From the NCBI RefSeq assembly GCF_008016535.1, contig NZ_SAXY01000040.1:1-64000 (forward strand): a DNA stretch of 64,000 nucleotides, given 5' to 3'. This document shows positions 5 through 16,647 of this stretch, in pieces. Below the pieces are notes generated by a model, which was not told where the DNA came from, searched no databases, and worked only from the letters and a program-made list of their open reading frames with translations. The DNA comes from Brachyspira pilosicoli (GTDB lineage: Bacteria > Spirochaetota > Brachyspiria > Brachyspirales > Brachyspiraceae). A program made the position numbers and the translations under genes. Each line of letters begins with the position of its first letter. Positions within the stretch are counted from its first letter, which is position 1.

Positions 5-841
5 TCAATAATGTGTATATTCTTTTAATTTTTCTCTCAATAATTCTACTGTGATATTTTTATTTAATCGTGAATAAAATTCTCTTTCGTCTATGCCGTG
101 TACTCTTTCTACTACGCCATTGTATCTTGGTGTTGCTATAGGAATATATCTCCTCTCTAATTTATTTTTTAAGCAGTATTCATCAAAAATATTTATTTTA
201 GGAGTATTAATACAGCGATAAGTATATTCTATACCATTGTCCGTTTGTATAGCCTGTATCTTAAAAGGTGAAGTTTTTAAGACATATTTTAAGAAAGATA
301 AAGCACTATAAGGTGTTTTATCCTCATAGATTTGCCTCCAACTATAGCGTGTAGCTAAATCTACTGCAGTGAATTGATAAACTGTTTTTCTGCCTAATTT
401 GATATATTTAGTGTCTATTTGAACTATTTTGCCCTCTTTTTGTATTTTAGAGACAAATTTTCGTTTATCATATCGCTTCTTTTTCTTTTTTGTTTTATAT
501 CTCCAAAGATTATTTCTTTTTAGTACATTCTCTATAGCTGTAACACCTATCTTAATGCCTTCACGATTTAAATATGCTTTAATATAATGCTTACCTCGAT
601 ATTCTTTAGTATAGAGTTCAATAATTAAATTAATAGCTTTTTGATTATTAAAGATATTTGGAGAAGTTTTTGGCTTAGTACTAAAATTAGCGACAGTTCC
701 AGTGTCTTTATATTTTTTAAGCCAAGCATAAAAAGTGGATTTAGGTATTTCTTGTCTCTTTAAAAATCTTTTAATATTTTTAGTTTTTAATGCTTCATCC
801 ACTATAAATAATTTAAATTCTGTGCTATAATCTCTTTTCAT
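5..841 (-). CDS. DDE transposase, IS3/IS481-like, probably C-terminally truncated
   Basis: A 278-residue protein with an N-terminal helix-turn-helix of Hin/IS type (about residues 5-44), a second HTH-like region (70-113) and an integrase catalytic core (about 135-265). The probable catalytic triad is Asp143 (in QIDTKYI), Asp201 (in QTDNG) and Glu245 (in GVVERVH). It would cut and join the ends of its own element. Family members normally continue some 30-40 residues past this point, with a conserved tail around an N-x-x-R-P-H motif. Here the frame ends at TGA after EYTHY, so the copy is probably truncated or frameshifted; the window edge prevents a check. The ATG at 841 has an AAGGA ribosome-binding site six bases upstream that can be buried in a hairpin. 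Confidence 0.85.
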   Translation of the reverse strand: MKRDYSTEFKLFIVDEALKTKNIKRFLKRQEIPKSTFYAWLKKYKDTGTVANFSTKPKTSPNIFNNQKAINLIIELYTKEYRGKHYIKAYLNREGIKIGVTAIENVLKRNNLWRYKTKKKKKRYDKRKFVSKIQKEGKIVQIDTKYIKLGRKTVYQFTAVDLATRYSWRQIYEDKTPYSALSFLKYVLKTSPFKIQAIQTDNGIEYTYRCINTPKINIFDEYCLKNKLERRYIPIATPRYNGVVERVHGIDEREFYSRLNKNITVELLREKLKEYTHY

Positions 842-1398: not shown

Positions 1399-2154
1399 AT
1401 GAAAAGATTAATAATTATTTTTGCAGTATTTACATTTAATATTTTAAATGCACAATACTATTCATATACCAATATAAAAAATTTACCTCAAAATGAATAT
1501 TTTACCTACAAAGGAATATCTTCTAAAAAAGATAAAGCAATAATTATATACACAGAAACTTCTATCGATAAAAATTACTGGAATATAAAAGAAACTTATA
1601 TTAAAGGAAATGTAACGAACAATTTAAAAGACCCTTTCAAATTGAAAGAAACTTTTCTAACTAATGTAAGAAAATCAGAAAATTACTACACAATAGATTT
1701 AAAAAATATGAGAACAGTGTATGCAAAAAATATCGATTATTATGAGTTTGGAAATATTGAATATACATTTGATATAAGAAAAAAAGTAGACTATACAAAC
1801 GATGCAGGAAGTTTGGCAATATTTTCTATGTATGGAATATATCAAATTGCAAGAGCTTATCCAATAGGCTCTACTAACCAAATGAATATTATTATGCCAA
1901 CATCAAGCCCAGACAGTAAGCTTAGAGCTTATGTTATATATAATGGAATAAAAAAAATAGATATTAACACCAATCAAAAAAATGCTTATGAAATGGAAGT
2001 AAAAATTGAAGGCATACCTTTTTCTATATTTCTTCCAAAAATGGGAGCATATATAGAAGAGAATGATGAATCAAGAAAAATAATAAAATATAATTCTATT
2101 ACTGGAATATTTGATAATATAGATATATATTTAACTGATTATAAATCTAAATAA
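1399..2154 (+). CDS. Secreted protein of unknown function
   Basis: A 251-residue protein with a clear signal peptide (charged MKR, hydrophobic stretch 4-15, likely cleavage after Ala18 in ILNAQ), so it is exported to the periplasm or beyond. The mature part is rich in beta-strand-type sequence and has no catalytic motif I can name. The arrangement of its second half faintly resembles DUF3108-type periplasmic proteins, but this is weak. No Shine-Dalgarno sequence precedes the ATG. The MBL-fold gene follows after 18 bases and may be cotranscribed. Confidence 0.7.
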   Translation: MKRLIIIFAVFTFNILNAQYYSYTNIKNLPQNEYFTYKGISSKKDKAIIIYTETSIDKNYWNIKETYIKGNVTNNLKDPFKLKETFLTNVRKSENYYTIDLKNMRTVYAKNIDYYEFGNIEYTFDIRKKVDYTNDAGSLAIFSMYGIYQIARAYPIGSTNQMNIIMPTSSPDSKLRAYVIYNGIKKIDINTNQKNAYEMEVKIEGIPFSIFLPKMGAYIEENDESRKIIKYNSITGIFDNIDIYLTDYKSK

Positions 2155-2172
2155 AAATTATGGAGAAAAATA

Positions 2173-2799
2173 ATGAGTGAATTAAAAGTAAGCTGTATTA
2201 ACACAAATATGTATGGAATGAACTCTTATATAGTTTCTGTAGAAGATGAAGCTATTATAATAGATATTGCTAAATTGTCATTTGGATATGATGATTATAC
2301 AAAATTATTAGAAGGCAAAAAACTTGTTAATGTATTGTTTACGCATGGGCATTTTGACCATATGTCTGGTGCTGATGATATAAGAGAGATTTACAAAGAT
2401 ACAAAGCATGCTGTACACAAAGATGATTATGATTTCTTTCAAGATGCTAACTTAAATGCAAGCGGTTATTTTGGAAGAGGTATAACATGCCAAAGCCCAG
2501 AAATAAAGTTTAATGATGGGGATACTTTTAAGTTAAAAGACAAAGAGTTTAAGGTAATACATACTCCGGGGCACACAAGAGGAGGAGTTTGCTATTATAC
2601 AGAGGGACACTTATTTTGCGGAGATACTATATTTGCTTATGGTATAGGAAGAACAGATTTTGTTACTGGAAACTATGAGGAACTTGAAAACAGCATAACA
2701 AATATAATATACAAACTTCCAGATGATACATTGCTTTATCCAGGTCATGATGCTTACGGCTTTAAATTATCGCAAAGAAAGAAGATGGGCATAATGTGA
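2173..2799 (+). CDS. MBL-fold metallo-hydrolase (glyoxalase II-like)
   Basis: A 208-residue cytoplasmic protein of the metallo-beta-lactamase superfamily, the size of a stand-alone hydroxyacylglutathione-hydrolase-like enzyme. The zinc motif is THGHFDH (His58, His60, Asp62, His63), followed by His134 (TPGH), Asp151 (FCGD) and His192 (YPGHD), so the whole binuclear metal site is present. Substrate cannot be read from sequence; thioester or lactone hydrolysis is typical for this branch. A GGAG site sits eight bases before the ATG. It lies 18 bases after the secreted-protein gene. Confidence 0.88.
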   Translation: MSELKVSCINTNMYGMNSYIVSVEDEAIIIDIAKLSFGYDDYTKLLEGKKLVNVLFTHGHFDHMSGADDIREIYKDTKHAVHKDDYDFFQDANLNASGYFGRGITCQSPEIKFNDGDTFKLKDKEFKVIHTPGHTRGGVCYYTEGHLFCGDTIFAYGIGRTDFVTGNYEELENSITNIIYKLPDDTLLYPGHDAYGFKLSQRKKMGIM

Positions 2800-2908
2800 T
2801 TTAATAATAGCTGCAGTATATTTAAATCCTTATGGAATTAACAGAGTTTCAAATAATTATGCTTTAAAAAATAGCGATAATTATGCATTAGAAATAGAAA
2901 TATTTTAA
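2795..2908 (+). pseudogene. Possible gene remnant, C-terminal 37 codons only
   Basis: Directly after the MBL gene a frame stays open for 37 codons and ends at TAA (2906-2908). It has a protein-like composition (AAVYLNPYGI, then SNNYALKNSDNYALEIEIF), but no start codon and no ribosome-binding site; a stop lies immediately upstream. This looks like the tail of a lost gene, perhaps of an exported or surface protein, but I cannot name the family. It could be chance. Confidence 0.3.
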
Positions 2909-2975
2909 TATTTTTCTAAAATTAATATAAAAAAATGCTTGACAAAACATAAAAATATCTTAGACTTACGGTATT

Positions 2976-3116
2976 ATGAATATTATGTTTAGTTTAGAAA
3001 ATATAAACCGCACCGCACCGCACCGCACCGCACCGCACCGCACCGCACCGCACCGCACCGCACCGCACCGCACCGCACCGCACCGCACCGCACCGCACCG
3101 CACCGCACCGCACTAA
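2976..3116 (+). CDS. Short ORF built from an RTAPH pentapeptide repeat
   Basis: An ATG at 2976 opens a frame giving MNIMFSLENIN followed by exactly seven RTAPH repeats (3009-3113) and a TAA directly after the array: 46 residues. A five-base repeat unit read in triplets gives a five-residue repeat in every frame, so the array itself is always open. With the present 21 units the frame closes at once. With one unit more, or two fewer, it would run into an 80-codon open stretch that reaches into the next gene. No Shine-Dalgarno sequence is visible. Whether it is translated is unknown. Confidence 0.35.
   Translation: MNIMFSLENINRTAPHRTAPHRTAPHRTAPHRTAPHRTAPHRTAPH
3008..3113. repeat. Perfect pentanucleotide array, CCGCA x 21
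   Basis: Twenty-one uninterrupted copies of CCGCA plus one base, with no mismatch, in a region otherwise almost free of G and C. The lack of any substitution suggests recent expansion or ongoing copy-number change by slipped-strand mispairing. It lies inside the short ORF at 2976 and about 220 bases upstream of the Cys2CysHis repeat protein. Confidence 0.97.
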
Positions 3117-3334
3117 TTTAAACTTTTTATTTAAAATATTTTTTAAGGGCATTTATAATCTTTTTAACTGCCTGTCTTTGCTATTGCAGAAATTATTATA
3201 CATTAAAAAACTATCAGAATTATTTAATAACTTTATATATTTAAATTTCTTTTATAAAACAATTAAATCAATTGCAAAACTTTCAATATTTTTCAAAAAT
3301 TTAATAATAAAAATTTATTTTAAGGAGGCTTTTT

Positions 3335-3589
3335 ATGGCTCAAAATTTTTACTGTGAATATTGCGGTAGGAAATATAATTCTATATTTAGTTTAACATCT
3401 GGTTCTTGTTCTAGACATCCTGATGGAGCAAATAAGGGAAGGCATAAACTTTATGAAGGAAGTGAAAAAACTCAATATTTCTGCAAATACTGCGGTAGGA
3501 AATATAATTCCATATCTGATTTAACATCTAATTATTGTTCTAAACATCCAAATGGAGCAAATAAGGGAAGACATGCACCTGCTTTATAA
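3335..3589 (+). CDS. Small protein with two Cys2-Cys-His zinc-finger-like repeats
   Basis: An 84-residue protein made of two near-identical repeats of about 33 residues. Each has C-x2-C-GRKYNSI, then C-x2-H, then NGANKGRH or DGANKGRH. The putative metal ligands are Cys7, Cys10, Cys25, His28 and Cys50, Cys53, Cys68, His71, spaced like a compact zinc finger. No signal peptide or membrane segment. A strong AAGGAGG ribosome-binding site is at 3322-3328. I do not recognise the family; binding to nucleic acid or protein is a guess. An open frame from the CCGCA array runs into its start. Confidence 0.75.
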   Translation: MAQNFYCEYCGRKYNSIFSLTSGSCSRHPDGANKGRHKLYEGSEKTQYFCKYCGRKYNSISDLTSNYCSKHPNGANKGRHAPAL

Positions 3590-3603
3590 TTGGGGTTAAA
3601 TTT

Positions 3604-3636
3604 AAGCACTTGATAAGTTTGTTTTATCAGGTGCTT
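3604..3636 (+). terminator. Stem-loop after the zinc-finger-like gene
   Basis: Arms 3604-3616 and 3624-3636 pair over 13 positions (AAGCAC with GTGCTT, one G-T wobble, TGATAA with TTATCA), with a seven-base loop. The sequence after it is A/T-rich but not a pure T run, so termination is likely but not certain. Confidence 0.55.
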
Positions 3637-3665
3637 ATAAATATATTTAATTTAAGGAGATTATT

Positions 3666-4811
3666 ATGTCTTTTATAAATATAAATGAATTGTTTAATGA
3701 TAATAATAAAAAAGAAATAGAAATTCCAGATTATCAAAGGGCATATTCTTGGGAAGAAGATCAAATAAAAAGATTTCTTTCAGATATAGAAGAATATATT
3801 GGAAATAAAGAAATTGAGTATTATATGGGGCATTTTTTATTTGAGAAGCATGATAATTCTGATACCTATTATATTATAGACGGACAGCAAAGACTTACTA
3901 CTATAGTAATATTTATGGCTTCCATTATAAACATTATGAATAAAAATAATATATTGGATAACGATATAAAAGATATTTATGATTCTATAAAAAATAAATT
4001 TTCAACAGTTTCATTTGATAACAATAATTTTAGAAAAATAATCGAAAATAATATAAGTAAAAGAGATTTGATTACTTTATCTCAAAAACGAATGCATAAT
4101 GCATATAAAATTTTCACTAATGAATTAAAAAATAAAAAAGATAAACTTAAAGATATGTTTGATATTATTATGAAATCCCGCTGCAGCGAGTATGTCGTAA
4201 GCACAAAATCCCAAGCGGTGCAAATGTTTATATATGAAAATGACAGAGGCAAAAATCCTACCAATTTGGATATACTCAAATCTTTATTTATACATACCAT
4301 ATATATTAATTCAAATAAAAAAGAAGAAATTATAAATGATATTAGTTCAAAATTTGAGGAAATTTTTAAAAGTATTTCAAAGATAGAGGATATTTTAAGC
4401 GAGAATAATTTTTTAGAAATAGCTGTAAAAACATTTTTTAGCGATTTGAAAGAAAGAGGCATAGAACATATAAGAAAATATTTAAATTCCAAAAATGATG
4501 AAGAAGTTCCTAAAAAAATTAAAGATTATGGATATGATTTCAATACAAAAATAGACTTTATAAATGATTTTGTAAATACATTGGTTAAAAATGGAGAATA
4601 TTTAGTAAAATTTGTAAATGAAGATAAAAAATATTTTTATATACATTCTATAATATCATTAGGCATTAATGTTGATATATATCCTTTAATAATATTTCCG
4701 TATAAAAACAATGTAGATGAAAAGACAAAAAAAGATTTTATAGAAATGATAGAAAATATATTAATAAGAAGCAGAGTTATAAATACTAGAAAAAAATATC
4801 TTCCGAATTAA
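3666..4811 (+). CDS. GmrSD/DUF262-type protein, N-terminal part of a frameshifted gene
   Basis: A 381-residue DUF262 (GmrS-like, ParB-fold) domain with PDYQRAYSW (21-29) and the hallmark IDGQQRLTT (71-79). In type IV restriction systems of this family this half binds and hydrolyses nucleotide and directs cutting of modified phage DNA. The expected C-terminal DUF1524 nuclease half is present downstream in another frame. The frames overlap only at 4790-4811, which contains a run of seven A (4790-4796). One more A, or two fewer, would give one continuous protein of about 573 residues. The end RKKYLPN is therefore probably out of frame. The gene is either inactive in this genome or switched by slippage. 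Confidence 0.85.
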   Translation: MSFININELFNDNNKKEIEIPDYQRAYSWEEDQIKRFLSDIEEYIGNKEIEYYMGHFLFEKHDNSDTYYIIDGQQRLTTIVIFMASIINIMNKNNILDNDIKDIYDSIKNKFSTVSFDNNNFRKIIENNISKRDLITLSQKRMHNAYKIFTNELKNKKDKLKDMFDIIMKSRCSEYVVSTKSQAVQMFIYENDRGKNPTNLDILKSLFIHTIYINSNKKEEIINDISSKFEEIFKSISKIEDILSENNFLEIAVKTFFSDLKERGIEHIRKYLNSKNDEEVPKKIKDYGYDFNTKIDFINDFVNTLVKNGEYLVKFVNEDKKYFYIHSIISLGINVDIYPLIIFPYKNNVDEKTKKDFIEMIENILIRSRVINTRKKYLPN

Positions 4812-4831
4812 GATGGAAATACTACTATAGA

Positions 4832-5386
4832 TTGGCTGATGATAATGATGATTATAATATAAATGATTTTGTAAATGATATGTTAAAAGCATTTGAAGAT
4901 GAATATTTTGCTTGGAGCAACAAGAGATATGAAGAATATCTTAATTATGAAATATCTAATCATACTATAAAATTTATATTATGGAAATATGAAAATTATT
5001 TATTGGGAAAAGAATTAAGATACGATGATGATAAAAAAATGCATAATATTAGTATAGAGCATATAGCACCCATTGAGCATCCGAATAAAAAAGATCATGG
5101 ATTTGGTAGATATGACGGTAAATTTAAAAATTTAATAAATAGTTTGGGAAATTGTCTGCTTTTAGATAAAGATATTAATAATGCATTGAAAAATTCAATT
5201 TTTTGCAAAAAACTAAAAGGTTATAATGATCAAGAAGAATTTAAAAAGCTTAAACAGCAGGAAGAAATTATTAATAAATATCTCAATAAAAAAACGGGAA
5301 CTATTAAATCTAATTGGGATAAAAATGCCATAGAAATCAGAAAAGCTAAAATAATTAATACAATGAAAAATATATACATAAAATAG
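4832..5386 (+). pseudogene. DUF1524 HNH-type nuclease half of the same gene
   Basis: This frame is open from 4790; TTG at 4832 is only the first possible start and has no good ribosome-binding site. The 184 residues contain the DUF1524 motif IEHIAP (His77 region) followed by LGNCLLL, typical of the His-Asn-His nuclease half of GmrSD/DUF262-DUF1524 proteins. Residues encoded just upstream in this frame (ISSELRWKYYYR) extend the domain without a break, which shows it was joined to the DUF262 half. As it stands it would be translated only by frameshifting or weak internal initiation. Confidence 0.8.
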
Positions 5387-5814
5387 TTATTGTATATTTT
5401 TTAACGATATTTTGTTAAATTTTATATAAATTATACTTGTATTAGCTTATTGATAATTCTGTCAAACAAATCACAAAAAACGGCAAATATGCTTTTAAAA
5501 TTAATATTGTGCTATATACCTTTATAGCTACTTAAACTGTATATTATAATTTATTTAAAATTTTTATAAAAAAGTTTGCATTTTTTTTATATATAACTAG
5601 GCTTGTCAATATTATCAATATTAAATTAAAATTTTGCAGCAATTAATATTTTTAAGAACAGAATAAAAATGTTATAGCACTATTTCTATTATATTCATTT
5701 AATAGGTTGGTGCTACCGTTCGTTTCAAAAGAACTGTGGGGCTAGTAGCCGCAAATAATTAAAATAAAAACTTATATGACAAAATATAGTTATTTAAGTA
5801 TAAATAAATGCAAT
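5387..5814. repeat. Gene-free stretch with a short copy of the G+C-rich intergenic repeat
   Basis: Mostly featureless A/T sequence. At about 5705-5757 there is a G+C-richer patch (AGAACTGTGGGGCT, then GCCGCAAATAATTAAAA) whose end matches other copies of the R2 intergenic repeat in this window, notably the one ending near 36780 (GCAAATAATTAAAATAA). It appears to be a short or decayed copy. Confidence 0.5.
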
Positions 5815-5845
5815 AAAAAAGCATGTACGTAAAATACATGCTTTT
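5815..5845 (-). terminator. Intrinsic terminator after potD
   Basis: AAAAGCATGTA (5817-5827) and TACATGCTTTT (5835-5845) form an 11-bp stem with a seven-base loop. On the minus strand it is followed by six T residues and lies 20 bases past the potD stop, so it ends the potABCD transcript. It could also work for the opposite strand. Confidence 0.8.
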
Positions 5846-5865
5846 GTTTTCTATGAAAATAATTA

Positions 5866-7068
5866 TTAATTTTCTCTTCTCTTCTTCTTTCTCAAAACTA
5901 TTATAGCTACACATAAAGCTACAACTACCGCCAAAGATATAGGAACAACCCAACCGCCGTAAGTTGAATCATCTGATAATATCTCATTCCAAAGCTCTTC
6001 CATAAGCAAGTTTGTCTCATCTGGCAATGTTATATAAACTTCGCAATTATCAAGAACCTCAGCAGGCGGATATATTAAAGGATTATTTTTTACTTCTTCG
6101 CTCATAATTTCTATAGCAGCATTATTAGGAGAGCCGTAATTAATATACTCTATATTAGCTAAAGCAACTTCTGCCTCGCATAAGAAATTTATATAAAGCT
6201 CAGCAGCCTCAACATTTTGAGCATTTGAAGGTATACATATAGCATCTACAAATAAATTAGCTCCATTCTCTGGTATAACAAATTTTAAATCAGGATTATT
6301 GTCTATCATAGAAAGAGAATCTCCAGCATAATAAACACCAAGTGCCGCCTCACCTGCCTCCATTTTGTCATATATTTCGTCCATTACATAAGCCTGAACC
6401 AAAGGTTTTTGCTCTTTTAATATTCTTGCAGTCTCTCTTAATTCCATTTCATTAGTAGTGTTTAATGAATAGTTTAAATAAGCCTGTGCCACTCCAAAAG
6501 CATCTCTTAGGTTATAATACATAAGTATTTGGCCTTTATATTTATCATTAAAAAGTATATCCCAGTCTACTATATCTTCTGTTACTTTTTTTGTATTATA
6601 TATTATTCCATTGATTCCCCAAGTATATGCTACAGAATATTCGCCTGTTGGGTCATAAAGTTGTTTATAAAATCTCTTGTCTATATTTTTAGCAGCTGGT
6701 ATATTATTATAATTTATTTTTTGTATGAGGTTTTCTTTTATCAATTTTGCTATCATATAATCTGAAGGTATTATTATATCATAAGCAATGCCGCCAACTT
6801 TTAATTTTACATAAAGCTCTTCATTTGAAGCAAAAGTTGAGTAATTTACTTTTATACCTGTAAGCTCTTCAAACTCTTTATTAATATCCATAGATTCATC
6901 AGAACCATCAGATATATACTCGCCCCAGTTGTATACATTTAAAGACATATTCTTATCTTTAAACTTCTGATAGTAGTTTAAATCGAGCTTGCTAGTATCA
7001 AGTCTCTGAGCATTCAATGAATAAAAACACATAGAAACTAATGCAAAACTAAAAAATAATTTTTTCAT
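5866..7068 (-). CDS. potD: Spermidine/putrescine-binding protein PotD, membrane-anchored variant
   Basis: A 400-residue extracytoplasmic solute-binding protein of the polyamine ABC importer. It has a signal peptide (MKKLFFSF, likely cut after LNA at about residue 20), the PotD-type start LNVYNWGEYISDG and the lobe motif YDIIIPSDYM. Unlike typical PotD proteins of about 350 residues, it ends with a hydrophobic segment (about 373-392) and a basic KKKRREN tail, which predicts a C-terminal membrane anchor instead of a lipid anchor. AAAGGAG precedes the ATG. It is the last gene of potA-potB-potC-potD, 24 bases after potC. Confidence 0.9.
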   Translation of the reverse strand: MKKLFFSFALVSMCFYSLNAQRLDTSKLDLNYYQKFKDKNMSLNVYNWGEYISDGSDESMDINKEFEELTGIKVNYSTFASNEELYVKLKVGGIAYDIIIPSDYMIAKLIKENLIQKINYNNIPAAKNIDKRFYKQLYDPTGEYSVAYTWGINGIIYNTKKVTEDIVDWDILFNDKYKGQILMYYNLRDAFGVAQAYLNYSLNTTNEMELRETARILKEQKPLVQAYVMDEIYDKMEAGEAALGVYYAGDSLSMIDNNPDLKFVIPENGANLFVDAICIPSNAQNVEAAELYINFLCEAEVALANIEYINYGSPNNAAIEIMSEEVKNNPLIYPPAEVLDNCEVYITLPDETNLLMEELWNEILSDDSTYGGWVVPISLAVVVALCVAIIVLRKKKRREN

Positions 7069-7092
7069 TTTTTATTATTCTCCTTTTAACTA

Positions 7093-7905
7093 TTAATTAT
7101 TTTTATTGAATTTTCTTTTTAATTGTGTTAAATATTTTTCTTTTTTTATCTCTTTAATATTGATAATAACTAAAGTGATAAGAACTATAGTAAATATTAC
7201 AGTAGATATAGCATTAATTTCTGGGCTTACTCTTTTTCTAGTCATAGAATAAATTGTTATAGGAAGAGTTTGAGAAGTGATGCCAGAAGTAAAATAACTT
7301 ACAACAAAATCATCTAAAGAATAAGTAAGAGCCATTAAAAAACCAGCTATAATACCAGGAAATATATCAGGAATTACAACCTTCCAAAAAGCCAAAGTAG
7401 GAGTGCATCCCAAATCTAATGCTGCTTCATACAAACTATTATCCTGCTGTCTTAATTTTGGAAGAACATTCAATATTACATAAGGTATATTAAAAGTAAT
7501 ATGAGCAAGTATTAAAGTTGTAAAACCGAATTTCAATTTCATTATTACAAACAAAAGCATTAATGAAACACCTGTCACTATTTCAGGATTAATTATAGAT
7601 ATGTAGGTAACACCCATAATAGCACTTTTCATTTTTTTGTTGAAAGAACTTATTCCAATAGCAGCCATAGTTCCTATAATTGTAGCAAGTACAGATGAAA
7701 CAGCAGCTACTATGATTGTGTTAAAAAAAGAAGTTAATATCAAATCATTTGAAAAAAGTCTTTCATACCATTCAAAAGTAAACCCCGTAAAAACTCCGCG
7801 TCCTCTTGCTTTATTGAAAGAGAAAAATATTAGTATAGCTATAGGAGCATATAAAAATAAAAATATAAAAGCAATATATGTTCTAGAGAGTATTTTTTTT
7901 ATCAT
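7093..7905 (-). CDS. potC: Polyamine ABC transporter permease PotC
   Basis: A 270-residue inner-membrane permease with about six transmembrane segments. The cytoplasmic EAA loop that docks on the ATPase is EAALDLGCTPTLAFWKVVIP, about 60-100 residues from the C-terminus as usual. With PotB it forms the channel for spermidine/putrescine uptake. The start overlaps the potB stop by four bases (ATGA), indicating translational coupling. Confidence 0.92.
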   Translation of the reverse strand: MIKKILSRTYIAFIFLFLYAPIAILIFFSFNKARGRGVFTGFTFEWYERLFSNDLILTSFFNTIIVAAVSSVLATIIGTMAAIGISSFNKKMKSAIMGVTYISIINPEIVTGVSLMLLFVIMKLKFGFTTLILAHITFNIPYVILNVLPKLRQQDNSLYEAALDLGCTPTLAFWKVVIPDIFPGIIAGFLMALTYSLDDFVVSYFTSGITSQTLPITIYSMTRKRVSPEINAISTVIFTIVLITLVIINIKEIKKEKYLTQLKRKFNKNN

Positions 7906-8711
7906 AATAGCATACCCTCTACATCATCATCAATCTGCTGCATAAGAAGTATAGCACATAATGAAATTACTATTAAAACCAAACTAATAGCAGACCCCAA
8001 ATTAGGATTATAAGACATTCCTAAAAATTGCATCTCTATCAAATCACCTATAAGTATGTTGGAGCCTCCACCAAGCATACGGGAAATTACAAATGTACTA
8101 ACAGCTGCCACAAACACCATAGTAACACCAGAAGCCATACCCGGCAAACTTAAAGGAAAAACAACTTTTGTAAATACATTAAAAGAATTAGCACCCAAAT
8201 CTTGAGAAGCCTCTATTAAACTCTTATGTATCTTTGTCATTACAGAATATAGAGGAAGTATCATAAAAGGCAAATAGTTATATATCATTCCTATAAGCAC
8301 AGCCCATTGAGTGTTTATAAGTTTTACAGGTGAAAGCCCGAAAAAAATTAAAGTCTTATTAATTAAACCATTTTGCTCTAATATAGTCATCCAAGCATAT
8401 GTTCTTAATAAAAAGTTCATCCACATAGGAAGCATTACAAGCATTATAAGTGCATGCTGAACTGTTTTATTTTGTCTTGATATATAATAAGATAATGGAT
8501 AAGCAAGTATCAAACATACCAAAGTAGACACAAAAGCAAGCATCACAGAACGCATTATAACAGGGGCAAATGTAGAAACATCTGCAAAATTTTTTATAGT
8601 AAAATCACCCCTCTGATTAGTAAAAGCAAAATATATAACCAAAATTAAAGGCACCAATATAAAAACTAAAGTCCAAATAAGATAAGGTATAGCAGGTATT
8701 TTTGTTTTCAT
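7902..8711 (-). CDS. potB: Polyamine ABC transporter permease PotB
   Basis: A 269-residue permease with about six membrane segments and the EAA loop [20 protein letters not shown]. It pairs with PotC. Its ATG overlaps the potA stop by four bases and its own stop overlaps the potC start by four, so the three genes are translationally coupled. Length and topology are normal for the family. Confidence 0.92.
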
Positions 8712-9766
8712 AAAAGCACCTCCTCTTCCTCTCTTTTCATTATATGAATATTTTCTTTAGCTACATCAATGCCAATCTCAGTACCAGCTTCCCATTTCTC
8801 TGTAGAATGTATAATCCATTTATAACCATGAGCATCAAGTATCATCTCATAATGAACACCCTTAAATATAGCAGATTCCACAAGTCCAGATATATTAGCA
8901 TTATCAGCAGGCACTACTATTATATCTTCCGGACGAATAACAACATCAACTTTCTCTAACTTTTCAAAACCCTTATCAACACAATTAAATACATAACCCG
9001 CAAACTCAACTAAATAATCTTCATGCATAATACCATCTATAATATTGCTCTCTCCAATAAAATCTGCTATGAATGCATTCTTTGGTTCATTGTATATATC
9101 TTGAGGAGTGCCAATCTGAAGTATCTCTCCGTCTTTCATAACAGCAACCGTATCACTCATAGTTAAAGCTTCTTCTTGGTCATGAGTAACATATACAAAA
9201 GTAATCTCTAATGACTGCTGAATTTTTTTAAGCTCTATTTGCATCTCTTTTCTAAGTTTTAAATCTAATGCTCCTAAAGGCTCATCAAGAAGTAAAACCC
9301 TCGGCTTATTTATTAATGCCCTTGCAATAGCTACCCTCTGCTGCTGACCGCCTGATAAATTATTGATATTTCTATTTCCGTAATTTTCTAAGTTCACCAT
9401 CTTCAGCATTTGATGAACTCTATCTTTAATATCTGCTTTAGGAACCTTTTTGAGATTAAGACCAAAAGCAATATTTTCAAACACATTAAGATGCGGAAAC
9501 AAAGCATATCTTTGAAAAACAGTATTTACTTCCCTTTTGTAGGGCTGAGTATTATTTATCACCTTACCGTCAAATAATACCTCTCCATAATCTGGCTTAA
9601 CAAAACCTGCTATAGTTCTAAGTATAGTTGTTTTACCGCAGCCTGAAGGTCCTAAAAGAGTGAGAAACTCTTTGTCTTTGATGTCTAAATTAAGATTTTC
9701 AAGTATGGTATTTTCACCATAAGATACATTGATATTTTTTAAAGATACGATAATATTATCGCCCAT
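8708..9766 (-). CDS. potA: Polyamine ABC transporter ATP-binding protein PotA
   Basis: A 352-residue ABC ATPase with Walker [11 protein letters not shown]-loop region, signature LSGGQQQR, Walker B VLLLDEP and the switch His ([10 protein letters not shown]), followed by a TOBE-type C-terminal domain (VVIRPEDI). It energises polyamine import through PotB and PotC. I chose the ATG at 9766 (MGDNIIVSL): it has a textbook AGGGGG site seven bases upstream, and the alternative start at 9823 would translate through the structured leader. It is the first gene of the operon. Confidence 0.93.
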
Positions 9767-9880
9767 CACACGACCCCCTATGCGTATATTTACAATAGCC
9801 TCCGTAAAATTACGTATATACATGTTAACGTATAAAACGCAGTTTACTCGTCGCTTACCCGCATAGGGTTTTTTTCGTTC
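9767..9880 (-). promoter_or_regulatory. Structured potA leader, candidate riboswitch hiding the ribosome-binding site
   Basis: The 5' leader begins with CCCTATGCG (minus strand, 9868-9860) and ends with a perfectly complementary CGCATAGGG (9784-9776). The nine-base-pair helix encloses about 75 bases. Its 3' strand overlaps the AGGGGG ribosome-binding site of potA, so closing the helix would block translation. Inside are further inverted repeats that compete (TACGT with ACGTA; CGTAA with TTACG). This local sequence is richer in G and C than the surroundings. A small-molecule-sensing leader for a polyamine importer is a reasonable inference, but I do not recognise an Rfam family. Confidence 0.55.
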
Positions 9881-9886
9881 TAGCTA

Positions 9887-9919
9887 ATTATAGATTAATA
9901 ATAAGCCTTTCTTAGTCAA
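9887..9919 (-). promoter_or_regulatory. Promoter of the potABCD operon
   Basis: A perfect TATAAT lies at 9892-9887, which puts the transcript start near 9880, just before the structured leader. TTGACT at 9919-9914 is a good -35 hexamer, but the spacer is 21 bases, longer than the usual 16-18, so the -10 element may dominate or an activator may help. Confidence 0.5.
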
Positions 9920-10122
9920 CAGATACACCTGCAAAGAATATCCATTACTCGAGCTATTGCATTAATTTTTTAATGAAACTCAATATAATACAAATAAAAA
10001 TAATGTCAATACTATAAATAAAATTTTATTTAAGTTTTTTAATTCTAATGAAATATTTTTACTAAATGTTATTAACATATCATAAAAAATAATTTTAAAT
10101 ATGAAATCTTAATATACAAAAG
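9920..10122. other. Gene-free divergent region between potA and the LEA14-like gene
   Basis: A/T-rich sequence with no reading frame, repeat or strong structure that I can support. It separates the outward-facing potA and LEA14-like promoters. Confidence 0.5.
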
Positions 10123-10151
10123 TTGCAATACTATTATAAATTATATATAAT
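10123..10151 (+). promoter_or_regulatory. Sigma-70-type promoter for the LEA14-like lipoprotein gene
   Basis: TTGCAA (10123-10128), a 17-base spacer and a perfect TATAAT (10146-10151), about 58 bases before the ATG at 10209. Confidence 0.6.
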
Positions 10152-10208
10152 CCAATATAAATAGATTTTTAGTTCTATAACAAAATTAAAATCAAGGAAG
10201 CTCATTCT

Positions 10209-10700
10209 ATGAAAAATATCAAAAAATTATCTATTGTCTTAATATCTTTATTATTTATATTATCTTCATGCGAAACATTACAAAATACAGCAAGAGAAAT
10301 TACAAGAGAATATATAGAAGAAAATAAACCAGATATAAAAGTAAAAAAAGCTTCTATTGCAAGTATAACTTTTAAAGATATTACTTTAGATGTGCTTCTA
10401 AATATAAAAAATAATTTTCCTTTTGAATTGCCATTAGAAAGAATAGATATAGAATTAATTAATACAGATAATAAAGTTTTTACAAGTGCAAACACTATTC
10501 AAACTCTAAAAATACCTTCTAAACAATCAAAAGATGTTAATATGGAGTTTAATGCTAAATATATTGATGTATTTACTACAGCCTTTGGAAGTATAAAAAA
10601 TAAAAACTTCAAATGCTCTGCTAAAATTACTTTAACTTTTACAATACAAAATATGAAATTCCAAATACCTTATACTAAAGAATTAACTTTTATAGAATAA
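10209..10700 (+). CDS. LEA14/WHy-like lipoprotein
   Basis: A 163-residue lipoprotein: signal sequence followed by the lipobox LSSC with the modified Cys at residue 21. The mature part matches the pattern of LEA14-type (LEA_2/WHy) domains: a derivative of FKDITLDVLLNIKNNFPFELP followed by a beta-rich fold and a closing polar strand. Such proteins occur in bacterial envelopes; their role is not established. The AAGGAAG ribosome-binding site is well placed. It converges on the MATE gene with 24 bases between the stops. Confidence 0.65.
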   Translation: MKNIKKLSIVLISLLFILSSCETLQNTAREITREYIEENKPDIKVKKASIASITFKDITLDVLLNIKNNFPFELPLERIDIELINTDNKVFTSANTIQTLKIPSKQSKDVNMEFNAKYIDVFTTAFGSIKNKNFKCSAKITLTFTIQNMKFQIPYTKELTFIE

Positions 10701-10724
10701 ATAATTTTTAAATAAATTTTTTAT

Positions 10725-12089
10725 CTATTGTGTGATATTTGAGTTTTTTTGCCATTTATTAGATTTATAATAATATAAACTAAACAAAGTATTTATTATA
10801 TAACAAATACCCATAGATGCCCATATTCCAACAAGTGCAAATTTTCCTGATAATACATAAGCTAATATGGTTCTTAAAATAAGTGTAGTAGAAGTGCTAA
10901 AAATCATTATTACTATAGTTTTACCAGCACCATTAATTATACCATTGCATACAAACATAATTGAATAAAATATAAATATAGGCATTATAGTATAAATATA
11001 ACTCTTAGAATATTCAAAAACTTCTAAATCTTTCGTAAACATATTAACTAGTAAATGAGGATTAACTATAGAAAATATGCTCATCACAGAAGAGATAATT
11101 ATACCAATAACAATGCCGTTTTTAAAAATTTCTTTTACCCTATCAAATTTATTAGCTCCGATATTTTGTGCTGACATTGTCATAACAGCATTACCTAAAG
11201 CCCCTATAGGCATAATAAATAAAGATTCTACCCTATTTACTATAGCAACCGTAGCACTTGCAGCATCTCCAAAACTGCTTATAAGTCTTGTTATTATAAG
11301 CCAGCCGAAAGCCACTATAAATTGATTCGATGAAATTGGAATTGCTAATTTCATTATCTTTTTAGTTATTTTAATATCAAATGTAAATATAAAAGGATTA
11401 ATTTTTATAAAGCTATTTTTTATTTTTAAATATGATGTGCTTATTAACACAGAAATACATTGAGATATTACAGTAGCTATAGCAGCCCCCTTAAGCCCCA
11501 TTGCTGGAATTATAAAAAAGCCCTTTATTAATATTGGGTCTAATATAACATTAATAACAGATGATACTATCAAAAATATTAAAGGCCTCACAGTGTCCCC
11601 AATAGCCCTAAGTATAGAAGATATAAAAAAATAAGAATATGCAAACGGCAAACCTATTATAGATATTCTCAAATAAATAACGGCCATATCTAAAGCATCT
11701 TTTGGGGTGTTCATTATTATTAATATTTTTTTAGCAAATATAAACATTAATGAGCCAACAGTAAAAAGTATAATAACTCCCAAAGTGGTAGATACTTTTA
11801 TTACATAACTAACACTATCATAATCTTTAGCACCATAATATTGTGATACTATAACCCCATTAGCCATATTGACCCCAAAAGCAAAAGAACCCATCATAAG
11901 TGTTATTGGAAAACTCACGGCAACAGCAGAAAGTCCAAGAGGTCCTATAATATTTCCTATCCATATGCTATCTACTATGTTATAAACAACATTCAATGTG
12001 TTTGATAATAATATTGGTATCAAAAGTGTGATAAGTGTGGTAGATACCTTTGATTCTGTAAGATCTTTGCCTATGTGATTTGATGACAT
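10725..12089 (-). CDS. MATE family multidrug/metabolite efflux transporter
   Basis: A 454-residue membrane protein with about twelve transmembrane segments in two homologous halves, the usual length for NorM/DinF-type MATE proteins. Typical motifs are the N-terminal SNTLNVVYNIVDSIWIG and LGLSAVAVSFPI, and the matching second-half region around residues 250-300. It exports cationic compounds using a Na+ or H+ gradient; the substrate cannot be inferred. The small lipoprotein gene lies 25 bases upstream on the same strand. Confidence 0.88.
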   Translation of the reverse strand: MSSNHIGKDLTESKVSTTLITLLIPILLSNTLNVVYNIVDSIWIGNIIGPLGLSAVAVSFPITLMMGSFAFGVNMANGVIVSQYYGAKDYDSVSYVIKVSTTLGVIILFTVGSLMFIFAKKILIIMNTPKDALDMAVIYLRISIIGLPFAYSYFFISSILRAIGDTVRPLIFLIVSSVINVILDPILIKGFFIIPAMGLKGAAIATVISQCISVLISTSYLKIKNSFIKINPFIFTFDIKITKKIMKLAIPISSNQFIVAFGWLIITRLISSFGDAASATVAIVNRVESLFIMPIGALGNAVMTMSAQNIGANKFDRVKEIFKNGIVIGIIISSVMSIFSIVNPHLLVNMFTKDLEVFEYSKSYIYTIMPIFIFYSIMFVCNGIINGAGKTIVIMIFSTSTTLILRTILAYVLSGKFALVGIWASMGICYIINTLFSLYYYKSNKWQKNSNITQ

Positions 12090-12114
12090 ATATTATTATA
12101 ACCTTCAAAATTAA

Positions 12115-12558
12115 TTAATATCTATTAAAAATACCACTGTATATTTTATCATTCATTATATTTCTTTTCTCTACTAAACCAACATTAGCTATATAAATAC
12201 TTTCATTATAACTACTCTTTACAAATTCAATAGTTAAATAGTAAGTAACACTATCTCCCCTATCATATACATATTTAGTTGCATCATACACATCATTCCC
12301 AGAAACAGTTCTATATACAATATCATACTTATAAAAATCTATAGTAAGGTTATATTGATCTTTAAACTGCATAGTACCGTCAGAAGCAATTCTTATAATA
12401 GAATTACCATGTATATTATCAGCTCCATATAAATATCCAGCCCAAGCTCCTGTATATATGTTGCCTTTTGTAAAAATCGAAGAAGTGCTTAAATTAATAA
12501 TACAGGAAGATAAAACTATGTTTAAAAATATTATTAGTAGTATAATTTTTTTATTCAT
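12115..12558 (-). CDS. Small lipoprotein of unknown function
   Basis: A 147-residue lipoprotein: hydrophobic N-terminus with lipobox VLSSC and lipidated Cys19. The mature part contains aromatic- and glycine-rich beta-type sequence (GAWAGYLYGADN) and ends YSGIFNRY, suggesting a small beta-sandwich or barrel. No enzyme motif is visible and I do not recognise the family. It lies just upstream of the MATE gene and is probably cotranscribed with it. Confidence 0.65.
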   Translation of the reverse strand: MNKKIILLIIFLNIVLSSCIINLSTSSIFTKGNIYTGAWAGYLYGADNIHGNSIIRIASDGTMQFKDQYNLTIDFYKYDIVYRTVSGNDVYDATKYVYDRGDSVTYYLTIEFVKSSYNESIYIANVGLVEKRNIMNDKIYSGIFNRY

Positions 12559-12697
12559 AATTTAATTACCATTTTTTAAACATTATTTTTAAGATAATAT
12601 ATCATAAAAATATAAAGTCAAATATCAAAATTACAGCAATATATTATAAAAAATGACTTTATTATAAATAAATAATTATATATAACATAGTATCAAG

Positions 12698-12726
12698 TTG
12701 ATTTTTTATGAGTGTTATTATATAAT
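12698..12726 (+). promoter_or_regulatory. Promoter for lepB
   Basis: TTGATT (12698-12703), exactly 17 bases, then a perfect TATAAT (12721-12726). The predicted start near 12733 leaves a short leader with an AGAAGG site before the lepB ATG. Confidence 0.65.
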
Positions 12727-12760
12727 ACTACATTAATATTTAGAGAAGGTGCTTAATTTT

Positions 12761-13807
12761 ATGGAAAACCCTATAAAAAATATTACAGATATCATAATAG
12801 GCGAATGCAAAACTTTTAAACATACATTAAAAGAAATTTTATACGCAATAGTAATAGTGCTCATTATAAACACATTTTTAATACAAAACTATCAAATTCC
12901 AACAGGTTCTATGATACCAATTATCATGCCTGGAGATAGGTTATTTGCAAATAGATTCGTATATGGCGTAAAACTTCCATTTACAGACGGACTTTTAGGA
13001 TATAGACTTCCTAAAATCAAATCACCTCAAAGGGGAGATTTAGTTGTATTTAGAGCGCCTCCTTCTTCTACTTTTGGATGCGAATCTTCTATGCCATATT
13101 ATGAACCTTCACCTTTGGTACAGATGTTAAAATTGCCTGTAATGGTATTTTCACTTACTCCTTTTAATTGGGACCCGAGATTTTTAGTGGCAGACTTTAT
13201 AGGAGAAAAACTCACAGGAGGAAAGCATCTTGCTCCTGCTAAATTATTCTTTGGGCTTAAAGCTGTAGATTTAGACCCTAGAAAAGAGTTTGTTAAAAGA
13301 GTAATTGCTACTGCTGGAGAAACTGTTGAAATTAGAGAAAAAAAGATAATTATAAATGGAAATGAAATAGAAGATAAATGGGGTTATTTTTATTATGGGG
13401 AAAGAGACTTCGTACCTATTATAGATATATATGGACCTGTTTATGTACCAAAAAAAGGTGATATTATAATATTTAAAAAAATAGTTGATAGGGAAGATTA
13501 TTATAATGACCTTAAATCTTTTGAAGTATATATTAATGATAAAATAGTTAGCGATGATATTAAACTATTTTTTTGGATGAATATATATATACCTTATGCA
13601 AAAGACAGACCCGATGAATATATATACAATGTACCTGAAGATTATTTCTTTGTCATGGGAGATAATAGGGATCAAAGCTGCGACAGCAGAATGTGGGGAC
13701 TTGTACCTTACAGACTTATTAAGGGTCAGCCTATGATTGCTTGGATACAATCAAAAAGACCTGATGATGTGCCTCAAGGTTTCTTTAAATACTTTATTAT
13801 AAAATAA
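12761..13807 (+). CDS. lepB: Signal peptidase I
   Basis: A 348-residue inner-membrane serine protease that removes signal peptides from exported proteins. It has one N-terminal membrane segment (about 26-42), then the catalytic Ser50 in PTGSM, the catalytic Lys179 in FVKRVIA and the conserved box MGDNRDQSCDSR near the C-terminus. It is longer than the minimal family size because of insertions between the Ser and Lys boxes, as in other Gram-negative enzymes. I start at ATG 12761; the GTG at 12749 overlaps the AGAAGG ribosome-binding site. The next gene follows after 13 bases. Confidence 0.92.
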   Translation: MENPIKNITDIIIGECKTFKHTLKEILYAIVIVLIINTFLIQNYQIPTGSMIPIIMPGDRLFANRFVYGVKLPFTDGLLGYRLPKIKSPQRGDLVVFRAPPSSTFGCESSMPYYEPSPLVQMLKLPVMVFSLTPFNWDPRFLVADFIGEKLTGGKHLAPAKLFFGLKAVDLDPRKEFVKRVIATAGETVEIREKKIIINGNEIEDKWGYFYYGERDFVPIIDIYGPVYVPKKGDIIIFKKIVDREDYYNDLKSFEVYINDKIVSDDIKLFFWMNIYIPYAKDRPDEYIYNVPEDYFFVMGDNRDQSCDSRMWGLVPYRLIKGQPMIAWIQSKRPDDVPQGFFKYFIIK

Positions 13808-13820
13808 GTGAATATATATT

Positions 13821-15461
13821 ATGTATAGCCAAATATCAAAAGATACATTAAAAGAATTATTAAAAATTTGGAAAGCAAAAAATATAGAAGATTTGCAAAA
13901 TAAAACTGATAATATATCTTTAATTTCGTATAAGTTCTTTCTTTTAAATAAAGAAGAAAAAGAAATTGTTTATTTTATTATAAAAAATTATGATAAAGAA
14001 ATCAATTCTATAGATATTGCATATTCTCTTAAATATGGTCAAAAGCAATTACCTATGTTTTTTAATTATGTTGATGATATAAAAAAATCTGGGCTTTTAT
14101 ATTTAAAAATGAAAAGAAGAAAACTTAATGCTAATGATGATACATTAAACTTTTTACCAAACATAAGAGAATTATTAGAAACAATTATTCTAAAAGACAA
14201 TACTAAAAAAATAGAAAATTATATTGATGTTAAATATAATGCTACAACATACAAAAAATATCTTAAAAAAATAATATCCATATATGAAAATGGAGGAATA
14301 ATAGAAAATACAAAAATAAAAATTACTAATGATGAATTATTGGATTTATGCAAGGCTAATATTGTTACATTATATTTTACAAAAGAAAGTGAAAATGCAT
14401 TTATAGCTATTAATAATACAAATGTATTAAACACTATAGAAAAATCTCTTGAAGACAATGTGGCTTCTTCTGTTTTTATATATAATCACCTTAATATATT
14501 AAATGATATAGAAAACTTTATTTATGAAGTAGATATTCAAAAAATAAATATAGATAATATTAATTTAGAAGTTTTTAGCAGCAATATAGATTATAACACA
14601 ATCATAGATATTTGCTTAAAACTTGATTTAATAGTGATAGATAATAAAGGTTTTATTTCATTAGAAAGTGATAATGTAAAAAAATTCTTATCACTTAATA
14701 TAGAAAAAAGAAGAGATACCATATTAAAACAAATATTTAAAAATCATATGGAATATCAAAATAAAATACTTCAAATATTAGAAAATAATGAAAATATTTC
14801 TAAAACCAAATTGCTATTAGAACTCAAAGAAAAAAACACTATATCTCCAGAAACATACAATAATATATTATATACAATGTTTATTTTCGGACTTGTAGAA
14901 GCTTCTTTTTATGAAGGAGCTATTGTTGCATTAAAAAGTGTAAAAGATATAAAAAATAATGCAAAAAAATGTTTTATTAATGGCAATTTTGAAATAACCT
15001 TAATTAATCATAATGCTTTTGATGATGATTTTATTTATATGTGTAATTTATATTTTGAGCTTGAAAAAAATGAAAGCGTTTATACTTATAAAATCACAGA
15101 AGACAAAATATTAAAAGCAAAAACTATTATAAATGATACTGAGTCTGATTATAGTTTTAATAATTTTTTAAGCAAATTAAAATCTGTATTAAATGAATAT
15201 TCGCTTACAATACCAAAACATGTAGAAAGTAATATTAACAGATGGTATGAAAGAGGAATTATATCTTCAATATACGAAAACATTACTTTGATAAATATAA
15301 AAGATAAAGACAAACTTGAAGAGATAGTTTATGAAGCAAACAGAAAAGGCATGAACATAAAAAAAATTAATGATGAATATGCTATATTAAAATACAATTC
15401 TGTAAGCAAGAAGACTTTAACGAAATTTTTAAGACAAAGAAGAATAATAGTAACTTTTTAA
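13821..15461 (+). CDS. Protein of unknown function, C-terminus helicase-associated-like
   Basis: A 546-residue cytoplasmic protein, Lys/Ile/Asn-rich, without signal peptide or membrane segment. Several short helical blocks look like winged-helix repeats. The C-terminal 90 residues (INRWYERGII, a beta-hairpin, then KKTLTKFLRQRRI) recall the XPB/Ssl2-type helicase-associated domain found alone or next to helicases. No helicase motor motifs (Walker A or DEAD box) are present, so it is not itself a helicase. It lies between lepB and queA on the same strand, 38 bases before queA. The assignment is tentative. Confidence 0.5.
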   Translation: MYSQISKDTLKELLKIWKAKNIEDLQNKTDNISLISYKFFLLNKEEKEIVYFIIKNYDKEINSIDIAYSLKYGQKQLPMFFNYVDDIKKSGLLYLKMKRRKLNANDDTLNFLPNIRELLETIILKDNTKKIENYIDVKYNATTYKKYLKKIISIYENGGIIENTKIKITNDELLDLCKANIVTLYFTKESENAFIAINNTNVLNTIEKSLEDNVASSVFIYNHLNILNDIENFIYEVDIQKINIDNINLEVFSSNIDYNTIIDICLKLDLIVIDNKGFISLESDNVKKFLSLNIEKRRDTILKQIFKNHMEYQNKILQILENNENISKTKLLLELKEKNTISPETYNNILYTMFIFGLVEASFYEGAIVALKSVKDIKNNAKKCFINGNFEITLINHNAFDDDFIYMCNLYFELEKNESVYTYKITEDKILKAKTIINDTESDYSFNNFLSKLKSVLNEYSLTIPKHVESNINRWYERGIISSIYENITLINIKDKDKLEEIVYEANRKGMNIKKINDEYAILKYNSVSKKTLTKFLRQRRIIVTF

Positions 15462-15499
15462 TTTTTTAGATTTAATTTTTTACAAAAGAGAAATATTTT

Positions 15500-16576
15500 A
15501 TGATAGATTATTTAAATAGAGAAACTTATAATTTTTATTTACCAGACAATTTAATAGCAACAACTCCAAACTATGAAAGAGACCATTGCAAGTTAATGAC
15601 AATCAACAAAAATACAGGAGAAGTAGAACATAAAATTTTCTCAGATATTATTAATTATTTAAATAAAGATGATATATTAGTTCTCAATGACAGTAAAGTA
15701 ATCCCTGCAAGAATATACGCTAAAAAAAATACAGGAGGTAATTCTGAGATACTTCTTCTAAATAAATTCAATAACAGTGAAGATTTATGGGAATGCTTAA
15801 TAAAAGGAAAAAACATAAAAGAAAATGATGTATTATATTTAGATTATAGCCATATAGAAAATATTGGAATAATAGAAGCTTTTATAATAAAAGATAATAT
15901 ATCAACAAAATTAATAAAGTTCTCAAAACCGCTCACTTCAAATATATTAGATAGAATTGGTAAAATACCTCTTCCCCCCTACATAATACAAAGCAGAAAG
16001 AAAAGAGGTGAAGAAGAATATAACGATAAAGATAAAGAGTTCTATCAAAATGTATATGCTAAAAACGAGGGAAGTATTGCTTCTCCTACTTCAGGACTTC
16101 ATTTTACTAAAGAGCTTTTAGAAAAAATTAAATCTCTTGGCATTACAATTTGCTATGTTACTTTGCATGTTGTTTTTTCTACTTTTAACCCTATAAAAGA
16201 AGAAGATTTAAAAAAACATATTATGCATGAAGAGAGATTTTCTATACAAAAAGAAACCGCTAGTATAATAATAAATGCTAAAAAAGATGGAAAAAGAATA
16301 GTATCCTGCGGTACAACTGTGGCAAGGGTTTTGGAAAGCGAATATAATGATTTTAATTTTAATAGATTAGAAGGCTCTACAAATATTTTTATATATCCTC
16401 CATATAAGTTTAAATGCATAGATGCTCTCATTACAAACTTCCACACCCCGCACTCTACTCTTCTTGCTATGGTGAGTGCTTTTGCTGGTTATGATAATAT
16501 TATGAATGCATACAAAATTGCTTTAGAAAATAATTATCATTTCTTCTCGTATGGAGATGCTACTTTTTTATATTAA
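15500..16576 (+). CDS. queA: tRNA preQ1(34) S-adenosylmethionine ribosyltransferase-isomerase QueA
   Basis: A 358-residue enzyme that transfers and isomerises the ribosyl part of S-adenosylmethionine onto preQ1 in tRNA, forming epoxyqueuosine. Family motifs are the N-terminal YLPDNLIA, LNDSKVIPARI, PLPPYI, the signature EGSIASPTSGLHFT and the C-terminal NFHTPHSTLLAMVSAFAGY. Length is normal. It follows the helicase-associated-like gene by 38 bases and precedes the AddB-like gene by 71. No other queuosine gene is in the window. Confidence 0.95.
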   Translation: MIDYLNRETYNFYLPDNLIATTPNYERDHCKLMTINKNTGEVEHKIFSDIINYLNKDDILVLNDSKVIPARIYAKKNTGGNSEILLLNKFNNSEDLWECLIKGKNIKENDVLYLDYSHIENIGIIEAFIIKDNISTKLIKFSKPLTSNILDRIGKIPLPPYIIQSRKKRGEEEYNDKDKEFYQNVYAKNEGSIASPTSGLHFTKELLEKIKSLGITICYVTLHVVFSTFNPIKEEDLKKHIMHEERFSIQKETASIIINAKKDGKRIVSCGTTVARVLESEYNDFNFNRLEGSTNIFIYPPYKFKCIDALITNFHTPHSTLLAMVSAFAGYDNIMNAYKIALENNYHFFSYGDATFLY

Positions 16577-16647
16577 GTTAAATACTTGATTAAATGGTAT
16601 TTTAGTTTATTATAAAAAATAAATTAAAACTATGGATTTTTTATAGC

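Follow-up and report, generated by a model that had tools for sequence, protein, structure and literature searches.

A perfect tandem array of a five-nucleotide unit inside a short open reading frame raises the question of whether it serves as a length switch and, if so, what it controls. The array in question consists of 21 CCGCA units without a mismatch at positions 3008–3112 on the forward strand of the window, by which we mean the whole 64,000-nucleotide stretch of Brachyspira pilosicoli contig NZ_SAXY01000040.1 that was analyzed and whose G+C content is 27.0%. TRF scores it as 21.4 copies of a rotated unit (3007–3113), and we propose it as a site of slippage. The surrounding leader ORF (2976–3116, forward strand) encodes 46 amino acids, eleven codons followed by seven copies of a five-residue repeat, MNIMFSLENIN(RTAPH)7, and closes at TAA 3114–3116 in what is presumably the OFF phase. 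A sequence-only reading had described the 21 units, the ATG at 2976, the 11 codons, the seven RTAPH repeats and the TAA, and all of these were found again in the sequence.

A second frame (3113–3357, forward strand) stays open from the array and runs over the next gene's ribosome site and start codon. It runs 244–245 nt (about 80 codons) past the array to TGA 3355–3357, which lies 23 nt inside that gene, and is joined to ATG 2976 by the gain of one unit or the loss of two, giving the putative ON phase; here, too, the earlier description proved accurate. The other two phases, the present 21 units among them, meet a stop 3–9 nt past the array; in the one of these that is not the present phase, the distance is 8–9 nt. 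Because 5 and 3 have no common factor, all frames of the array yield one and the same five-residue cycle and the number of units sets only the exit frame; because no frame of the unit contains a stop, a ribosome starting at ATG 2976 always crosses the array. Slipped-strand frame switching has long been known, and the window has what is expected of it, an uninterrupted non-triplet tandem repeat inside an ORF. The genome (G000, 2.76 Mb) is a draft in 113 contigs, and the count of 21 may therefore reflect a compromise made in assembly. When the 221-nt spacer is shuffled by dinucleotides, a frame reaches the gene start with a chance of 0.0035, and real intergenic DNA of the genus does so at this length in 2 of 88 cases. 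On the strength of these two controls and of the genus-wide count given below, we rejected chance or base composition as the source of the layout.

Upstream of the leader, a promoter-like TTGACA-16 nt-TAGACT element (−35/−10; 2939–2966, forward strand) agrees with the consensus at 10 of 12 positions. It is the best-scoring match, and its end lies 9 nt before the leader ATG. A scan of the 900-bp region gave 6 promoter-like matches compared with 5.2 in shuffles, so the promoter call leans on likeness to other leaders of the genus. No Shine-Dalgarno sequence was found at the window leader. With the −10 element only 9 nt from the ATG, the leader may begin at or near the 5′ end of the mRNA, that is, be leaderless. 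Other leaders without a Shine-Dalgarno sequence have similarly short distances from −10 to ATG (6–7 nt in L009, L318, L329 and the second array of L273), though L331 (20 nt) and L360 (32 nt) are counter-cases. This shared spacing makes leaderless initiation likely.

Downstream, a Shine-Dalgarno-like AAGGAGG (3322–3328, forward strand) precedes ATG 3335 of the gene that we propose to be controlled (3335–3589, forward strand). Its product is an 84-residue protein with two zinc-finger-like CxxC units, for which every Pfam zinc-finger match falls below the curated cut-off. Relatives are present in 25 of the 26 Brachyspira genomes, and only three of 30 homologue loci scanned have a 5- or 7-nt array, the window's being the only one known to lie in a leader; the homologues thus supplied no orthologous leaders. 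A GmrSD-type restriction gene follows (3666–5386, forward strand; GmrSD_N at 3666–4811 and GmrSD_C within 4820–5386) and is a possible second target. Its frame is broken at an A7 run (4790–4796), and longer, unbroken homologues exist in G010 and G018. A zinc-finger-like gene and a broken GmrSD-type gene are a less usual cargo for phase variation.

The ON-phase leader stop overlaps the downstream start by lying 23 nt inside the gene, as translational coupling would have it. No intrinsic terminator hairpin was found between the leader and the gene, and the ribosome site of the downstream gene appears to be accessible (unpaired at 0.60 compared with a control mean of 0.49), so the zinc-finger-like gene may be expressed without the leader. 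With neither a terminator nor a clearly hidden ribosome site, the effect of the leader on the downstream gene at the window is uncertain.

Similar arrays recur in the genus. Of 26 Brachyspira genomes, 13 carry CCGCA in runs of at least three units and 11 carry AGCAC in runs of at least four. The pattern GGAG..ATG..(YMRNA)5 has matches in 19 of the 26 genomes, compared with 0 of 172 genomes of other spirochaetes. One match (G017:C24) looks like chance; the pattern demands GGAG and a certain form of unit and thus misses other leaders, the window's included. A contig scan with bare repeats matched mainly G+C-rich genomes, and only L063, which is identical to G020:C216 letter for letter, was used from it. 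The window leader itself was found in no second genome among the 26, which confines any comparison of unit number to other loci. G000 carries two further CCGCA arrays, ahead of a TM2/zinc-ribbon gene (C38) and an MBOAT gene (C76). At all three CCGCA leaders of this genome one phase reaches the next start, ending at +23, +7 and +19 nt.

We surveyed perfect arrays of at least 20 nt (at least 28 nt for period 7) in about 1.1 Mb from three genomes, comprising 20 stretches each of G010 and G004 and 20 of G000 plus the window. Period 5 accounted for 15 arrays, the window's own included, and period 7 for four; the same samples held four period-12 arrays and four homopolymers of 10–12 nt, and none with periods 2, 3, 4, 6, 8–11 or 13–15. 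The arrays are clustered, with five from G000 in one 20-kb stretch and all four 5-nt arrays of G004 in another. A rough projection gives some tens of arrays per genome. Seven-nucleotide arrays with a like frame layout lie in leaders or gene starts at L318 13355–13448, L322 7894–8062 and L329 6437–6488 in G010 and at L360 486–622 in G004. The window contains other repeats as well, a perfect 23-nt unit in 2.7 copies at 19835–19895 and repeats of 48, 93, 99 and 408 nt throughout apparently coding DNA at 29562–32418.

The repeat peptides differ from locus to locus (RTAPH, QHSTA, RTEQN, QHNTT, HRIAS). Genes that follow arrays encode MBOAT proteins, glycosyltransferases (families 2, 29 and 61), NeuB, ATP-grasp and arylsulfotransferase proteins, an ankyrin lipoprotein, a restriction-modification (RM) enzyme and a radical SAM protein. 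Genes of these kinds are usual cargo in phase variation.

Orthologues of the MBOAT O-acyltransferase (at least 72% identity), present in 16 of the 26 genomes, offer the strongest test, and in 16 of 16 a period-5 array stands at the leader start. Nine of them use CCGCA as the unit and three AGCAC; TCGCA, CAATA and ACAGA occur once each, and G017 has a degenerate five-unit CCGAA. Period and place are conserved and the unit sequence is not. Between G004 (TCGCA) and G006 (CCGCA), the unit differs throughout the array while the flanks are identical at 142/153 and 148/152 positions. G002 and G020 have 10 and 9 units, respectively, between flanks identical at 143/151 and 148/150 positions. Such changes of unit and copy number at orthologous loci with nearly identical flanks support the slipped-strand frame switch that the sequence-only reading had proposed. 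Judged by exit frame, the 15 MBOAT leaders that have not decayed are in mixed states, nine predicted to be ON and six OFF.

The MBOAT leaders share a second feature. In 15 of the 16 orthologues a hairpin (−9.3 to −17.0 kcal/mol, folded in 60 nt) has the start codon of the gene in its loop and the Shine-Dalgarno sequence in its stem. The coupled frames of the leaders stop within or beside this hairpin, at −2 to +19 nt relative to the start; one extra G019 frame stops at +46. The sole exception is G017, where the hairpin is decayed, as is, alone among the 16, the array, and where all leader frames close at least 163 nt before the gene. Stem positions pair in 90.5% of cells compared with 34–45% when the stem is slid. 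Covariation was not above shuffles (190/500), and we thus limit our claims to pairing and the 15 of 16 folds. A U-run follows the G000 hairpin, which also scored as terminator-like. Among 17 downstream starts, one of them MBOAT, 8 have a fold below the 5th percentile set by 180 control genes. As judged by eye, a transposase-like gene at window positions 5–841 has a near twin at L010 5262–6197, just upstream of the G000 MBOAT leader.

At other loci the array is followed by a hairpin of another kind. Within 100 nt of 12 arrays in glycan-type clusters (L355, L358, L319, L275 and L308), a terminator-like hairpin of −13 kcal/mol or stronger begins; at 11 of the 12, at least one frame stops inside or beyond the hairpin and others before it. 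L355 (G000:C90:1-20000) has five CTGTT-type arrays in 10 kb of such a cluster (9069–18992), placed at gene ends, and four of them precede a terminator-like hairpin entered by at least one frame. L358 (G004:C1:80001-100000) has four arrays in 9 kb (1694–10431) close to NeuB and sialyltransferase-like genes, and a terminator-like hairpin comes after each array.

Arrays are also found within coding sequences. G012 has one inside a 554-residue membrane protein, in the open phase. An Eco57I-type RM gene contains in-frame AGCAC units numbering 14 in G004, 8 in G005, 10 in G010 and 7 in G017, and is predicted to be open in G004 and G005 and closed in G010 and G017 (L268, L269, L270 and L272). Repeat number thus differs between species at orthologous RM loci, as it does at MBOAT loci. 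An arylsulfotransferase-like lipoprotein of G010 has a separate leader whose long frame stops 25 nt before the gene start; by eye, it resembles a G019 lipoprotein to which an array is fused directly.

How often would a frame reach the next gene by accident? Among 34 leader loci with a separate downstream gene, whose starts were picked by hand, 29 have at least one frame that stops between −5 and +30 nt of the next start, as do 15 of the 20 unrelated loci that remain once orthologues are reduced. A stricter count, which drops G019 a (stop 3 nt before the start) because it is in frame with the gene, gives 14 of 20, compared with 2.64 expected from real intergenic DNA (P = 1.7e-11 for 14 or more). 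Where the spacer is at least 100 nt, 7 of 11 loci reach the start and 0.33 would be expected. The five unrelated loci that fall short have stops at −21, −25, −38, −49 and −143 nt. Intergenic DNA of three genomes reached the start in 56/199 cases at 64 nt, 14/178 at 98 nt, 4/140 at 160 nt, 2/88 at 221 nt and 0/64 at 275 nt. The P value is Poisson-binomial, with the control rate set by hand to 0.5 where the spacer is about 48 or 55 nt, the 0/64 at 275 nt entered as 1/64, and every other spacer given the rate of the nearest length.

The set of 34 excludes the decayed MBOAT leader of G017; arrays on contigs that end short of a gene (two in G018, two in G020 and one in G003); the in-frame fusions of G012, G023, the four RM genes, the G019 lipoprotein and the 7-nt array L360 of G004; and arrays at gene ends or ahead of terminators (five in L355, four in L358, two in L319, one of which is L276, and two in L275). 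That a layout with one frame open to the next start recurs so far above chance lends weight to the earlier suggestion that the switch also affects the zinc-finger-like gene.

Could the window instead hold a plain in-frame contingency gene, in which the switch makes or breaks a small protein of about 128 residues? The frame is indeed open for some 80 codons, and true in-frame fusions exist elsewhere in the genus (the G012 membrane protein, the RM genes of G004, G005, G010 and G017, and the G019 lipoprotein). Yet the tail peptide occurs in 1 of 26 genomes, and it ends just inside the next gene, as unrelated tails do at many unrelated loci. The sequence-only reading had favored a small protein and pointed to homologues of its tail as a test; the only tail found among the 26 genomes was the window's own, and with repeat peptides differing elsewhere the idea that the sequence of this protein matters found no support. 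We regard this alternative as unlikely. Still less probable is that these are neutral microsatellites, functionless slippage-prone arrays whose frames are open by chance, an account that fits the failure of the layout at five of 20 unrelated loci. It sits poorly with periods almost confined to 5 and 7 in the samples, with a fixed place at the ATG in 16/16 MBOAT orthologues despite different units, with the open-frame excess (P = 1.7e-11) and with the classic phase-variable character of the downstream genes.

Phase variation of the spacer type is known from other systems, and short G+C-rich tandem sites near promoters would look much like the present arrays if the repeats were DNA or RNA binding sites for a counting or titrating protein, or if they set promoter spacing. 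Unit sequence varies at one and the same locus, though, and the arrays lie past the ATG and not between promoter boxes. We rejected the binding-site reading since the unit changes at the MBOAT locus, and give this group of explanations as a whole very little credence. An assembly or sequencing artefact might be suspected in a draft of 113 contigs, the more so as draft contigs elsewhere in the genus break off at arrays; against it, arrays are present in near-complete chromosomes (contigs of 3.0–3.2 Mb in G007, G004 and G010) and recur at orthologous places, which makes an artefact scarcely credible.

We consider it quite probable, on sequence grounds, that slipped-strand changes in length make the array a switch within its short leader ORF and that arrival of the leader ribosome controls the downstream gene. 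Slippage would change the number of units, and that number modulo 3 would set the exit frame of the ribosome. In two phases, that of 21 units included, the leader ribosome would halt 3–9 nt past the array, so that the locus as assembled is predicted to be OFF. In the third it would continue for about 80 codons over the next ribosome site and start codon and stop 23 nt inside the gene. Its arrival may raise expression of the zinc-finger-like gene by translational coupling or re-initiation, by shielding otherwise untranslated mRNA, or by both. Elsewhere the leader ribosome would act on a hairpin that hides the Shine-Dalgarno sequence, as at MBOAT genes, or on an intrinsic terminator, as in glycan clusters; in certain genes the array would act through its in-frame fusion to the protein itself. 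From the observed layout, its recurrence, the turnover of unit and copy number at orthologous loci and the statistics, we infer that arrays slip in culture, that leaders are translated and that downstream genes respond.

The window locus is one of many such leaders in Brachyspira. It shares the leader and the frame logic with other loci. The genus-wide recurrence of the layout suggests an on/off gene-switching system in Brachyspira. It seems fairly probable that the genus has its own set of phase-variable genes, some tens in each genome, assembled from one recurring module of a promoter, a short leader ORF, a 5- or 7-nt array with an interchangeable unit, and a single frame that remains open as far as a start codon, a Shine-Dalgarno-hiding hairpin or a terminator. 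Under the same proposal, units would be replaced wholesale over time with frame logic and hairpins kept, decay of the array would be accompanied by decay of the hairpin (one case), and the controlled genes would be those of surface-glycan enzymes, lipoproteins and restriction enzymes.

If the proposed switch is real, gut spirochaetes, animal pathogens included, use many loci to vary their surface glycans, lipoproteins and restriction enzymes at random. This would bear on vaccine antigens and strain typing, and short-read assembly could mis-size the arrays. VNTR typing already exists for Brachyspira. No description of repeat-driven phase variation in Brachyspira came up in a literature search covering few subscription journals, and the examined passages of PMC2650404, PMC4267127, PMC5415613 and PMC8116685 contain no account of leader switching in the genus. 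A 2025 review of phase variation names neither Brachyspira nor Streptococcus gallolyticus in the text covered by a term search (PMC11868660).

Comparison with systems described in other bacteria places the Brachyspira loci in relation to three known arrangements. Simple-sequence-repeat contingency genes of Haemophilus carry tetranucleotide, pentanucleotide or heptanucleotide repeats and switch in frame (PMC2651432). The Brachyspira arrays are likewise non-triplet repeats near the 5′ ends of surface-glycan, lipoprotein and RM genes, and this classical in-frame class directly covers the G012 gene, the RM genes and the lipoprotein of G019. At the window and most other loci, in contrast, the array sits in a separate leader, out of frame with the controlled gene. 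An upstream stop near or overlapping a downstream start is also the arrangement of translational coupling (PMC3711429), but here coupling would be limited to some of the three array phases.

The closest parallel is provided by the pil1 and pil3 loci of S. gallolyticus, where GCAGA repeats in a leader ORF underlie phase variation; at pil1 an intrinsic terminator ahead of pilA serves as the control element, with an effect proven by mutants (PMC3894217). Like pil1, the window has a short leader ORF that contains a perfect pentanucleotide array and has a start and a promoter of its own, the latter called here by consensus only; the number of units sets, or at the window is predicted to set, how far the leader ribosome travels, to an early stop or as far as the control element. 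Unlike pil1, the window has no terminator, and its open frame crosses the next start codon. Lacking a pil1-type terminator, the locus is not classed as a member of that type, though it may work alike. Terminators in Brachyspira are found mainly in the glycan clusters, which reproduce the pil1 layout, whereas MBOAT leaders end in or beside a hairpin that hides the Shine-Dalgarno sequence. If our reading is correct, an attenuation-type switch of the streptococcal-pilus kind has been used many times in an unrelated phylum, where it is mostly aimed at the start codon.
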